A stretch of 64,000 nucleotides of DNA from Longimicrobiales bacterium. Lineage in GTDB: Bacteria; Gemmatimonadota; Gemmatimonadetes; Longimicrobiales; Gaopeijiaceae. Where the stretch lies: NCBI GenBank assembly GCA_951828585.1, contig OX639991.1, positions 4,074,001 through 4,138,000 of the forward strand, written 5' to 3'. Below are positions 4,009 to 59,482 of the stretch, in pieces. The first letter of the stretch is position 1. Every line of letters begins with the position of its first letter. The position numbers were made by a program, and so were the translations under genes. The notes under the pieces are model-generated. The model worked only from the letters and a program-made list of their open reading frames with translations, made no database searches and was not told the DNA's origin.

Positions 4009-5484
4009 TCACCGGAACGCCGGAATCAGGGTGGAATCCGCGGTAAGTGGGTGAAGGGCACCCCCGAGGATCCGGACCGGGTAGAACTGTCGCGTGAGGC
4101 GGCCTTCGGTCGTGAAAGAAAAGGTGCCCGTGACACCTTCGAATGGAGCCAGCCGCTCCAGGGCGTCCATCACCTGCCGCGAGCTGCGCGCGCCTTCGCG
4201 GTACGCATCCAGCGCCATGCGCAGCAGGTCGAAGCCGGCCGCGGGGACCATGCTGTTGAACGATCGCCGGAAGAGCTCTTCGTACGCGCCGACGAACTCC
4301 GGCGGCGGTTGCCGCACCTCACCCGGCGGGGTCGTGCTCACGGCGATTACACTGTCGGTGTGCCTCCGTGCCACGCCATCGATCACGAGCGGATCCGTCC
4401 ACGCGGCCGTGCCCGCGATCTGCACCTCCATCTCGTCGAGACCGAAAAAGGCGATCTGGGGTGCGAGCAGTTCCAAATCGGCGGGGGAAGCCGCGACGAC
4501 CAGCACGGATGGCTCCAGGGACTTGGCCCGGGTGAGATACTCCCCGAAGGTCGTGGTTCCGGACTGATATCGTATTCGACGTCTCACAAAGCCGCCCAGG
4601 GACACGAAGCTTCGCTGGAAGGCGTCCATCTCGACGCTTTCCCGTGAACTTCGCGGGTGCACGATGACGACGTCCGCGTAGCCGAGATCCCATAGGGCCT
4701 GCGCCAGCGATCGCCCCGCCTCCGGGTCGCCGGCAGCCAGGCTGTACACTCCCGGGCGGCCGTACGGGAGCTGCCTGGCCGTGGGGGAAAAGAAGGCCAC
4801 ATCGCGGGGCGCGGCTCTGACCGCCGCGCGCAAGTTGTCCGCATCGAGAGGGCCGATGATGGCCAGCGCGCCGCGGTCCAGGAGGGCGTCCACCCCCCGA
4901 GCACTGCCGGACGCGGTACCCAGGTTGTCCTCGACGATGACTTCCACGTTGACGCCATTCCGGCGGGCCAGCAGGGCGCCCACTTCCAGTCCTTCGATGA
5001 AGAGTCGCGCGTATTCACGGCTGGACGGCGACCCCGTAAGCGGAAGCACGGCTCCGATGACCACGACGGCATCGGCGGGCCCCTCCGACACCGAGTCACC
5101 CTCCTCCACAACCACCGCTGCCCGGGTCGTCTCCACTTGTCCGGAATCGGGCTCTGTCTCGGAAGCTGCTGCCTCGTCGATTGCGGCGATCGCCGCACTG
5201 TCGGCCACCGTATTCGGTGCGCCCGATGCACAGGCGAAAACCAAACCGATCAACGCGGCGCCGAGCAGTCCGGCCGCAGGGGCGACGCGGCCTGGTACCC
5301 CCAGCCGGAACCCGGCAACGATCGCGCCGCGTATGGCCGCAACCGGGGCCCGCAGCCCGTGGACAAAGCCGCCCGAGCACCGAGAGCGGCGAGGCGCCGT
5401 GCTGGCAAGGCGCGACGAGAGGTGAATAGCAGCGCTATTCGCCCGAGGAGCAACGCAGAGCGAAGCGGTCCAGCGCGGATGCAT
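4009..5484 (-). CDS. Periplasmic ligand-binding (ABC substrate-binding type 1) lipoprotein; start lies in a repeat
   Basis: Resembles type 1 periplasmic binding proteins (branched-chain amino acid receptors, LpoA-like proteins). The binding fold runs from AVVVIGAVLPLTGSPSSREYA through LAIIGPLDADNLRAAVRAAP, DVVIVHPRSSRESVEMDAFQ, and GFDLLRMALDAYREGARSS. A hydrophobic segment ends in LIGLVFAC, a lipobox-like site, followed by a Ser/Glu/Asp-rich linker, so it is probably an outer-membrane-anchored lipoprotein. The start is unusual. Between the lipobox and the MITE-like repeat there is no ATG or GTG, and the only TTG is 7 codons from the cysteine. The nearest plausible start is the ATG at 5482-5484 inside the first repeat copy; the frame stays open through all three copies to a GTG at 5910. 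The N-terminus is therefore uncertain. It lies between rpsA and pccB on the same strand. Confidence 0.7.
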   Translation of the reverse strand: MHPRWTASLCVAPRANSAAIHLSSRLASTAPRRSRCSGGFVHGLRAPVAAIRGAIVAGFRLGVPGRVAPAAGLLGAALIGLVFACASGAPNTVADSAAIAAIDEAAASETEPDSGQVETTRAAVVVEEGDSVSEGPADAVVVIGAVLPLTGSPSSREYARLFIEGLEVGALLARRNGVNVEVIVEDNLGTASGSARGVDALLDRGALAIIGPLDADNLRAAVRAAPRDVAFFSPTARQLPYGRPGVYSLAAGDPEAGRSLAQALWDLGYADVVIVHPRSSRESVEMDAFQRSFVSLGGFVRRRIRYQSGTTTFGEYLTRAKSLEPSVLVVAASPADLELLAPQIAFFGLDEMEVQIAGTAAWTDPLVIDGVARRHTDSVIAVSTTPPGEVRQPPPEFVGAYEELFRRSFNSMVPAAGFDLLRMALDAYREGARSSRQVMDALERLAPFEGVTGTFSFTTEGRLTRQFYPVRILGGALHPLTADSTLIPAFR

Positions 5485-5874
5485 CGCCGCTCGAATGCCG
5501 GGGGGGTTCTGTCCGCGGGCTGCCCGCAGTCCGTGGACAAAGCCGCCCGAGCACCGAGAGCGGCGAGGCGCCGTGCTGCCAAGGCGCGACGAGAGGTGAA
5601 TAGCAGCGCTATTCGCCCGAGGAGCAACGCAGAGCGAAGCGGTCCAGCGCGGATGCATCGCCGCTCGAATGCCGGGGGGGTTCTGTCCGCGGGCTGCCCG
5701 CAGTCCGTGGACAAAGCCGCCCGAGCACCGAGAGCGGCGAGGCGCCGTGCTGCCAAGGCGCGACGAGAGGAGAATAGCAGCGCTATTCGCCCGAGGAGCA
5801 ACGCAGAGCGAAGCGGTCCAGCGCGGATGCATCGCCGCTCGAATGCCGGGGGGGTTCTGTCCGCGGGCTGCCCG
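5353..5874 (+). repeat. Three tandem copies of a 174-bp MITE-like repeat
   Basis: Three near-identical 174-bp units follow one another exactly (landmark CGCAG at 5351, 5525 and 5699). Each unit starts GCAGTCCGTGGACAAAGCC (or GCAGCCC in the first copy) and ends in a sequence whose reverse complement is GCAGCCCGCGGACAGAACC, so 15 of 19 terminal bases are inverted repeats. Copies differ at only a few bases. The unit length is a multiple of three and one minus-strand frame has no stop through all copies, so the array forms an N-terminal extension of the lipoprotein reading frame. A diverged copy lies at 59235-59482. No transposase is encoded, so a MITE or REP-type non-autonomous element fits best. 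Confidence 0.88.
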
Positions 5875-5923
5875 GCCGGACCACTTCACCGCTGCGCAGG
5901 GTTTCGCCACAGGCTGTTACTCG

Positions 5924-8062
5924 TCAGTCGGATCCCTTTTCCTCGTCCGCCTCTTCCTGCGGCGCCTCGGGCTCGTCTGCCGCGGCCTCAGGCTCGTCCC
6001 CCGCAGCCTCAGGCTCATCTGCGGCCGCTGCGGGCTCGTCTGCCGCAGCCTCAGGCTCATCTGCCGCAGCCTCAGGCTCGTCTGCCGCAGCCTCAGGCTC
6101 GTCTGCTGCAGCCTCAGGCTCATCTGCCGCAGCCTCAGGCTCGTCTGCCGCAGCCTCAGGCTCGTCTGCCGCAGCCTCAGGCTCATCTGCCGCAGCCTCA
6201 GGCTCGTCTGCCGCAGCCTCAGGCTCATCTGCCGCAGCCTCAGGCTCATCTGCGGCCACGTCACGAGCCTCGTCGGTCACGTCGTCCTGGACCGGCGCCT
6301 CGTCCGCGGGCTCTCCGTCCCCGTCGCCCACGTCCGGCGGCTCGCTCGCCTTACGACGTTCCGGCGCGGTCACGACTTCCAGCACGATGCGCCGGTCCGA
6401 GGCATCGGATGCAATCACTCTCAGCGACACGGTGTCGCGAGGCTGGAAGTAGTCCGTCAGGGAATCGGCGGGGACGGCCGCGTGCGAACTGGGGACGAAA
6501 CCCTCCACCCCTTCTTCCAGCTCCACCACTACACCCTTGTCCTGGAGCCGCACCACGCGCCCGTCGACTTCAGAGCCCCTCGTGAACCGGGTCACAAGCT
6601 CCGGCCAGGGATCGTCGTGCAGCTGCTTGATCCCGAGCGAGATCCGCTTGTTGTCCGAATCCACGTCCAGGACCATGACTTCGACTTCCAGGCCCTTCTG
6701 AACCACTTCCGACGGATTTTCCACACGGCGGGTCCAGCTCATGTCCGAGACGTGGACGAGGCCGTCGATCCCCGACTCGATTTCGACGAAGGCTCCAAAG
6801 GAGGTCAGGTTGCGCACGGTTCCGGTAAGGCGCGTTCCGGTGGGATACTTCAGGGGCAGCGCAAGCCAGGGATCCTCCTTGATCTGCTTCATGCCGAGGG
6901 AGATCTTCTCGTCTTTCGGGTCGACCTTTAGGACCACGGTTTCGATTTCGTCGCTAATGGACACGATCTTCGACGGGTGACGGACGTTGCGCGTCCACGA
7001 CATCTCGGAGATGTGGACCAGTCCCTCGACCCCCTTCTGCAGCTCCACGAAGGCGCCGTAGTTGGTGATCGACACGACCTTGCCACGCACCCTCGCACCG
7101 ACCGGATAGCGGTCCTCGATGTCCGTCCATGGATACGGCAGCAGCTGTTTGAGTCCGAGCGAGATGCGTTCCCGGTCCCAGTCGATGTCCAGCACCTTGA
7201 CGTCGAGCCGGCTCCCGATCGTCACGACCTCGGAAGGGTGGCCGACACGGCCCCAGGACATGTCGGTGATGTGCAGGAGTCCGTCGAGGCCGCCCAGATC
7301 GATGAAGGCGCCGAAGTCGGTGATGTTCTTCACCACGCCCTCGCGGACCTGTCCGTTGAGCAGCTCCTTCACCAGGGTGGTGCGCTTCTTCTGCCGTTCG
7401 CGTTCGAGAATCACCCGGCGCGACACCACGATGTTGCGGCGGCGCTTGTTGAGCTTGATGATCATGAACTCGTAGCTCTCGCCGATCAGGTCCTCGATGT
7501 TAGGGACCCGCCGGAGCGCGATCTGCGATCCCGGGAGGAAGGCGTCGACACCCATGATGTCGACGGTCACACCGCCCTTGATCTTGCGGGTCAACAACCC
7601 CTTCACGGGGCGGTCGTTCTCGTAGGCGTCCTTGATCAACTCCCAGACGCGCAGGAAGTCCGCCTTCTTCTTGGAAAGGACCACCACCCCGTCGTCGTCC
7701 TCGAGGCTCTCCAGAAGGACTTCCACCTCCTGGCCGGCCTCGATGGTTTCCGGATCCTTGAATTCGTCGAGCGAAACGGCGCCCTCGCTCTTGAATCCGA
7801 ATTCGAGGATGACGGTGGCCTCGGTGATTCGCAGCACTCTGGCCTGGACGATCTGTCCCTCGCGAATGTCGCCGCCGGCCGTCCGGTGCTCGTTGAGCAT
7901 GGCCTCGAAGTCGTCCCGGGAGACATCGAGGACTTCTTCGCCGAAGGGATCGTGGATCAGTTCCGGCGAGATGTCGCCGGGAAGGGCCTGGTTCGAAGGC
8001 GGGGGATCTGTCGCCAGAAGCGGGCCGTCGTCGCCCGGCTGGGGTTCTTGATTCTCGTTCAT
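5924..8062 (-). CDS. rpsA: 30S ribosomal protein S1 with six S1 domains and an acidic repeat tail
   Basis: Binds mRNA on the 30S subunit and helps initiation, especially on leaders with weak SD sequences. The 712 residues contain six S1/OB-type domains, at about residues 55-125, 140-205, 225-295, 310-380, 397-467 and 485-550. Domains 3-5 show the strong RNA-binding signature (TDFGAFIDLGGLDGLLHITD, TNYGAFVELQKGVEGLVHIS, TSFGAFVEIESGIDGLVHVS). The C-terminal ~150 residues are an Asp/Glu/Pro/Ala-rich tail containing 14 heptads of AADEPEA type, longer than in well-known S1 proteins. The start at 8062 has only a weak GGTGG upstream, which is common for rpsA. It lies downstream of the aroA-cmk fusion; cmk-rpsA adjacency is conserved in many bacteria, which supports both calls. 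Confidence 0.96.
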   Translation of the reverse strand: MNENQEPQPGDDGPLLATDPPPSNQALPGDISPELIHDPFGEEVLDVSRDDFEAMLNEHRTAGGDIREGQIVQARVLRITEATVILEFGFKSEGAVSLDEFKDPETIEAGQEVEVLLESLEDDDGVVVLSKKKADFLRVWELIKDAYENDRPVKGLLTRKIKGGVTVDIMGVDAFLPGSQIALRRVPNIEDLIGESYEFMIIKLNKRRRNIVVSRRVILERERQKKRTTLVKELLNGQVREGVVKNITDFGAFIDLGGLDGLLHITDMSWGRVGHPSEVVTIGSRLDVKVLDIDWDRERISLGLKQLLPYPWTDIEDRYPVGARVRGKVVSITNYGAFVELQKGVEGLVHISEMSWTRNVRHPSKIVSISDEIETVVLKVDPKDEKISLGMKQIKEDPWLALPLKYPTGTRLTGTVRNLTSFGAFVEIESGIDGLVHVSDMSWTRRVENPSEVVQKGLEVEVMVLDVDSDNKRISLGIKQLHDDPWPELVTRFTRGSEVDGRVVRLQDKGVVVELEEGVEGFVPSSHAAVPADSLTDYFQPRDTVSLRVIASDASDRRIVLEVVTAPERRKASEPPDVGDGDGEPADEAPVQDDVTDEARDVAADEPEAAADEPEAAADEPEAAADEPEAAADEPEAAADEPEAAADEPEAAADEPEAAADEPEAAADEPEAAADEPAAAADEPEAAGDEPEAAADEPEAPQEEADEEKGSD
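5965..6258 (-). repeat. Fourteen 21-bp tandem repeats encoding the S1 acidic tail
   Basis: Fourteen contiguous 21-bp units (plus-strand consensus CCTCAGGCTCRTCTGCCGCAG) encode heptads of the AADEPEA type near the C-terminus of ribosomal protein S1. Units differ mainly at a silent G/A in the GAC/GAT-type position; a few carry replacement changes (AADEPAA, AGDEPEA). Such a pure in-frame array is expected to change length by slippage without shifting the frame. Confidence 0.95.
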
Positions 8063-59234: not shown

Positions 59235-59482
59235 GCAGCCCGTGGAAAAAACCCTCCCGGCATTCGAGCGGCGATGCATCCGTGCTGGATCGCTTCGCTT
59301 CAGGCTGTTCATGATGTCAAGGAAACGTTACATAATGTAATGTATAGTATACATACTGCCGCTCAAAGGCTTCGCTCTGCGTTGCTCCTCGGGCAAACAT
59401 CTCTGCTATTCCCCTCTCGTCGCGCCTTGCCAGCCCGGCGGCTCACCGCTCCCGGTGCTCGCAGGGCTTATCCACGGACTGC
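59235..59482 (-). repeat. Diverged copy of the 174-bp MITE-like repeat carrying a 77-bp insertion
   Basis: Opposite in orientation to the 5-kb array. It starts GCAGCCCGTGG and ends CCACGGACTGC, the same terminal inverted repeats, and shares the internal landmarks CATTCGAGCGGCGATGCATC and GCGTTGCTCCTCGGGC. Compared with the intact units it has an extra 77 bp (59300-59376): the seven bases CTTCGCT occur once in intact copies but flank the insertion here at 59293-59299 and 59370-59376, like a target-site duplication. The insert contains an A+T-rich double palindrome (TTACAT-A-ATGTAA, TGTATA-G-TATACA). The whole element lies in the 370-bp gap between thrC and the sigma factor gene; nothing else is recognised there. 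Confidence 0.8.

Follow-up and report, generated by a model that had tools for sequence, protein, structure and literature searches.

The window, a stretch of 64,000 nucleotides that was analysed as a whole, carries a threefold repeat at 5.3 kb, located between two minus-strand genes, rpsA and one that encodes a Peripla_BP_6 lipoprotein. What is this repeat, how did it reach this position, and does it belong to the coding region of the lipoprotein gene? Comparison of the sequence with its own genome and with related genomes makes it very probable that the repeat is a MITE trimer, dispersed in trans by an IS1182-like transposase and inserted in frame in the lipoprotein gene. The features concerned are as follows.

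4009..5910, minus strand: lipoprotein open reading frame (Peripla_BP_6), in which the array most likely stands in frame close to the 5' end (ORF; Pfam PF13458, E 3e-32; array-free orthologues)
5349..5352, unstranded: CCCG, left 4-bp target duplication (CCCG at both outer sides and between copies; counted once, it yields the same length as the empty site in relatives)
5353..5522, plus strand: MITE copy 1, 170 bp (BLAST and profile match, TIR at each end)
5523..5526, unstranded: CCCG spacer 1
5527..5696, plus strand: MITE copy 2, 170 bp (BLAST and profile match, TIR)
5697..5700, unstranded: CCCG spacer 2
5701..5870, plus strand: MITE copy 3, 170 bp (BLAST and profile match, TIR)
5871..5874, unstranded: CCCG, right 4-bp target duplication
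5924..8062, minus strand: ribosomal protein S1 gene (rpsA), upstream neighbour, stop near 5924 (ORF; relatives' proteins)
59236..59481, minus strand: solitary diverged copy, 246-bp form with AT-rich insert (sequence match; empty site in four relatives)

Tandem Repeats Finder reported a period of 174 at 5348-5874, with 3.0 copies, 99% matches and zero indels. Profile and TIR analysis resolved the array into three 170-bp elements with CCCG between and outside them, CCCG-(5353-5522)-CCCG-(5527-5696)-CCCG-(5701-5870)-CCCG, the period being one element plus one shared 4-bp CCCG. An earlier note on this DNA had described three exact copies of a 174-bp element. Three head-to-tail units are indeed present; they are not exact (pairwise identity 98.2–99.4%), and 174 bp is the period rather than the length of the element. 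Terminal inverted repeats of about 19 bp had been noted; those of the units measure about 18 bp and are imperfect (CAGYCCGTGGACAAAGCC versus CAGCCCGCGGACAGAACC). The plus strand of the array gave −102.2 kcal/mol versus −77.5 kcal/mol in shuffles (z −6.2), beating 200 of 200 shuffles. A search of the window for RNA families (Rfam) returned only a tRNA; a conserved RNA was ruled out as the identity of the array, which had no match above the gathering score. A phage or plasmid element was likewise set aside, the array having no match at blastn sensitivity.

The diverged copy that the earlier note had placed near 59 kb is real and is a 246-bp variant with an AT-rich insert of about 75 bp. The element has main size classes of about 170 and 245 bp, the AT-rich segment of about 75 bp in the longer form being placed after position ~119. 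Intermediate deletions and minimal palindromes of 41–52 bp also occur in the family in this genome; the latter are REP-like and hold little beyond the two ends of the element (L157, L166, L171, L172, L177, L180, L181, L184 and L186). The genome is GC-rich, and the AT-rich insert of the 59-kb copy, of L056, L060 and L074 and of other 245-bp copies has kept a TATACATGACATAATGTAAT-like core, a possible candidate for a promoter or a protein-binding site.

Dispersal of the element and its probable autonomous partner

Following a suggestion of the earlier note, we searched the complete genome and its relatives with the unit and aligned the flanks. In the window's own genome, a closed single contig of 4.47 Mb, 85 BLAST matches to the unit were found at about 40 loci. 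A TIR pattern matched 297 sites versus 39 with the reversed control, so that about 258 ends are in excess, the equivalent of roughly 130 elements. The element was present in 22 of the 22 other species of the genus examined, and beyond it in some other genera of its family and order. Its ends read CAGYCCGTGGA...TCCACGGRCTG, with C[CT]AG-like tetranucleotides next to them. In 10 of 52 copies the two 4-bp flanks were identical, versus 3.3 copies expected when flanks were re-paired (P about 0.0004, consensus C[CT]AG). Both window loci have empty sites. The insertion at 5.3 kb is absent from close relatives, in which the gene is uninterrupted and the spacing is that obtained by counting CCCG once, and the 59.2-kb copy is absent from four relatives (G003, G007, G013 and G019). 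Among the dispersed 170-bp copies compared, the highest identity was 98.8%, between L064 arrays that lie a few kb from each other, and the others reached at most 97%. Short, devoid of a transposase, bounded by TIRs of about 18 bp and a 4-bp target duplication, dispersed in many copies and missing from empty sites, the element is by its sequence characters a mobile, genus-wide MITE family. The proposal of the earlier note that it was MITE-like, mobile and without transposase is borne out by these features and by an IS in sister species, described below.

The DDE transposases of the genus were screened, and their ends were then compared with those of the MITE. An IS of about 1.50–1.53 kb, found in G001 (three copies), G005, G007, G015, G016 and G019, has ends that match the MITE across 15–19 bp (e.g. 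CAGTCCGTGGATAAAGTCC and CAGCCCGTGGATAAAGTC), and CTAG was present on both sides in 7 of the 8 near-complete copies examined. Some copies are frameshifted or fragmentary. The MITE and this IS have their ends in common and differ in their interiors. The transposase resembles the IS1182 family in its DUF772 and DDE_Tnp_1 domains and in its best NCBIfam hit, IS1182 (NF033551, E 2e-51 and 9e-58), but its scores (176 and 196 bits) lie below the cut-off of 270. Some IS1182 members have been reported to target palindromes, and IS1272, of the same family, to replace its target stem-loop, leaving no duplication (PMC5678879); the present IS, in contrast to IS1272, makes clean CTAG duplications.

The IS1182-like DDE element of the sister species is the probable mobiliser of the MITE: its ends and target suggest that such a transposase dispersed the MITE in trans. 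Sister species still carry this transposase, and the window's genome has lost the intact gene. The cognate transposase is present in this genome only as a remnant of about 100 codons (1,373,839-1,374,120). An autonomous long form within the same genome was considered and rejected; pairs of TIRs 0.9–3.6 kb apart, examined around solitary TIR sites, have ordinary genes between them, and no transposase was recognised there by eye. The genome is also rich in other IS with DDE_Tnp_1 (41 matches, several multi-copy, as at G000:C1 496525, 642182, 911970 and 1066818), and these are not the partner of the MITE.

Tandem arrays across the genome

The earlier note had held tandem, in-frame MITE arrays to be unusual. 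Tandem arrays as such are not exceptional in the present genome, in which arrays of 2–5 units occupy at least seven loci, the focal trimer included. The others include one 3 x 245-bp array and one mixed 169 + 247 pair, and the internal units of a five-copy array are 99.4–100% identical. Several arrays have the spacer CC and a 1-bp deletion that is common to their internal units and absent from the last unit; their unit sequences otherwise differ. CC and CCCG spacers recur at loci with differing outer flanks, and CCCG spacers occur also at loci whose outer flanks are CTAG. Head-to-tail junctions were likewise present in draft assemblies of other species, where the array flanks were mostly ended by contig ends.

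Because many arrays have a common junction (spacer CC or CCCG), these comparisons suggest that multimers are mobile as units and expand afterwards by unequal exchange. The CC spacer, together with the 1-bp deletion of the internal units, fits a fixed-junction dimer that moved whole and expanded locally. At the focal array the spacers are identical to the outer duplications, which fits a local duplication of '4 bp + element'. The trimer may have formed when unequal exchange or replication slippage doubled the 4-bp duplication with the element, or a dimer may have transposed whole and expanded later. As CCCG spacers are also found at CTAG-flanked loci, either route may account for the trimer, a purely local origin being one possibility.

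Probable position of the array in the lipoprotein gene

One frame has no stop across the three copies, as the earlier note had observed; it lies on the minus strand and runs on into the downstream gene. The lipoprotein open reading frame has candidate starts at GTG 5910 and GTG 5889, and its lipobox lies well downstream of the array. In the orthologues of G007, G013 and G019 the frame starts at GTGs homologous to these two and reaches the lipobox. G013 has no usable standard start downstream of the insertion point, and the n-region gaps among the four orthologues are 3 and 6 bp, multiples of three. Since the orthologues keep the upstream GTGs, G013 lacks a downstream start and the gaps are multiples of three, the array most likely lies in frame inside the lipoprotein coding region and adds 174 codons to it. 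Within the lipoprotein signal sequence the insertion would fall after the start codon and before the hydrophobic core, and the gene would now probably encode an N-terminal region 174 residues longer, provided that the array is translated as predicted.

The openness of the frame was compared with shuffled sequences. Copies of 170 bp had 3.05 open frames each versus 2.48 in shuffles, and copies of 245 bp had 1.55 versus 0.56, the latter copies having common ancestry and so not forming an independent test. Selection for an open frame was rejected, as a GC-rich unit of 58 codons is open about as often as chance would predict (3.05 versus 2.48). What is notable is the probable location of the frame within the lipoprotein coding region, a point that the earlier note had missed, rather than the openness itself.

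A decayed left part of the element (52–63 bp, 73–78% identity) was found in the lipoprotein n-region, in the same orientation, in G007, G013 and G019 (L128, L129 and L130). In G015 (L132) the rpsA stop itself is the site of a 245-bp copy (about 1048-1281). The orthologous lipoprotein gene lies downstream of this copy, as does another remnant that resembles an element end; an in-frame MITE at the same gene was rejected for this species, the 245-bp copy being far upstream of a plausible start. On the other side of the focal array, the S1 protein has counterparts at 74–94% identity in MAGs of Gemmatimonadota, several of them bins with sponge-type names; the source probably belongs to Candidatus Palauibacter, an NCBI genus of this phylum that has a species named rhopaloidicola, or to a close genus. 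A 21-bp tandem repeat of about 14 copies adjoins the array (5957-6253) and encodes AADEPEA-like stretches of 7 residues in the acidic C-terminal tail of S1.

Alternative explanations and related systems

Three other accounts of the array were weighed. The strong palindromic character of the element, and the 41–52-bp palindromic forms with the same ends in the genome, would be expected of REP/BIME-type palindromes dispersed by a RAYT (an HUH tyrosine transposase) instead of a DDE transposase. We regard this as highly improbable. The inverted repeats stand at both ends with duplicated 4-bp flanks, a DDE IS with the identical type of ends and duplications exists, and the one-sided GTAG mark is absent, the ends being CAG...CTG with C[CT]AG on both sides. 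An assembly artefact, in which the assembler collapsed or expanded a repeat, has only a very slight chance of accounting for the triplication. The array does rest on one assembly, but its three units differ at several sites, the five-copy and 3 x 245-bp arrays stand elsewhere in a single-contig genome, and the junctions recur in the drafts of other species.

Domestication would mean that the array has been kept since its in-frame repeated peptide is useful in the N-terminal region of the lipoprotein. The frame has no stop over 522 bp and joins that of the gene, and the decayed piece of about 60 bp in three related species lies in the n-region of the same gene in the same orientation. Nevertheless, openness is near chance at the given composition, the identical array structure is found elsewhere in the genome, relatives are without the array, and the sequence of the unit drifts as it does in the rest of the family; we consider domestication improbable. 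A wider proposal, in which multimeric MITEs throughout the genus are mobile units (dimers with a fixed CC or CCCG junction, transposed whole and expanded later) whose antisense frame repeatedly supplies signal-peptide n-regions of the lipoprotein, is unlikely in our estimate. If it were true, a small transposon family would be a donor of secretion leaders.

The preferred reading, a mobile MITE trimer inserted in frame, has parallels in other bacteria. In-frame MITE fusions, one of them contributing to a signal peptide, have been reviewed (PMC2229807, PMC10969869), and a 168-bp Yersinia repeat with a 56-residue frame forms part of a signal peptide (PMC2229807). RPE, ERIC and YPAL are, like the present element, palindromic mobile repeats of 100–200 bp whose open frame can become part of a gene by in-frame fusion. 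Their ends are unrelated, whereas the tandem trimer, the 4-bp C[CT]AG-type duplications and a traceable IS partner distinguish the present family, whose in-frame insertion, in comparison with RPE, was found by orthologue comparison at one gene only. BrickBuilt of Porphyromonas gingivalis, a MITE containing a 23-bp minisatellite (PMC4596501), also links a MITE with tandem repetition, but there the minisatellite lies within a single MITE and here whole elements stand head to tail. REP/BIME sequences are short palindromes spread genome-wide, sometimes as multimers, and the GTAG mark of REP is one-sided (PMC3733652). The present elements are likewise short genome-wide palindromes that sometimes form multimers; they differ in their two-sided target duplications, in a DDE partner instead of RAYT and in having no GTAG head. 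A literature search, partial in its coverage, returned no description of this MITE family or of any IS1182-linked MITE.

The MITE family is new, and the general phenomena (MITEs, and in-frame fusions of RPE, ERIC and YPAL) have precedents; the advance is moderate because these phenomena were already known. What sets the family apart is its frequent tandem arrays together with the focal in-frame insertion. These results add, for a phylum that is largely uncultured, a genus-wide MITE family and its probable autonomous partner, and species with and without the transposase form a natural contrast. The recurrent arrays let one ask whether MITE multimers travel as units, and the focal insertion would illustrate clearly how a mobile repeat can lengthen the start of a gene for a secreted protein.
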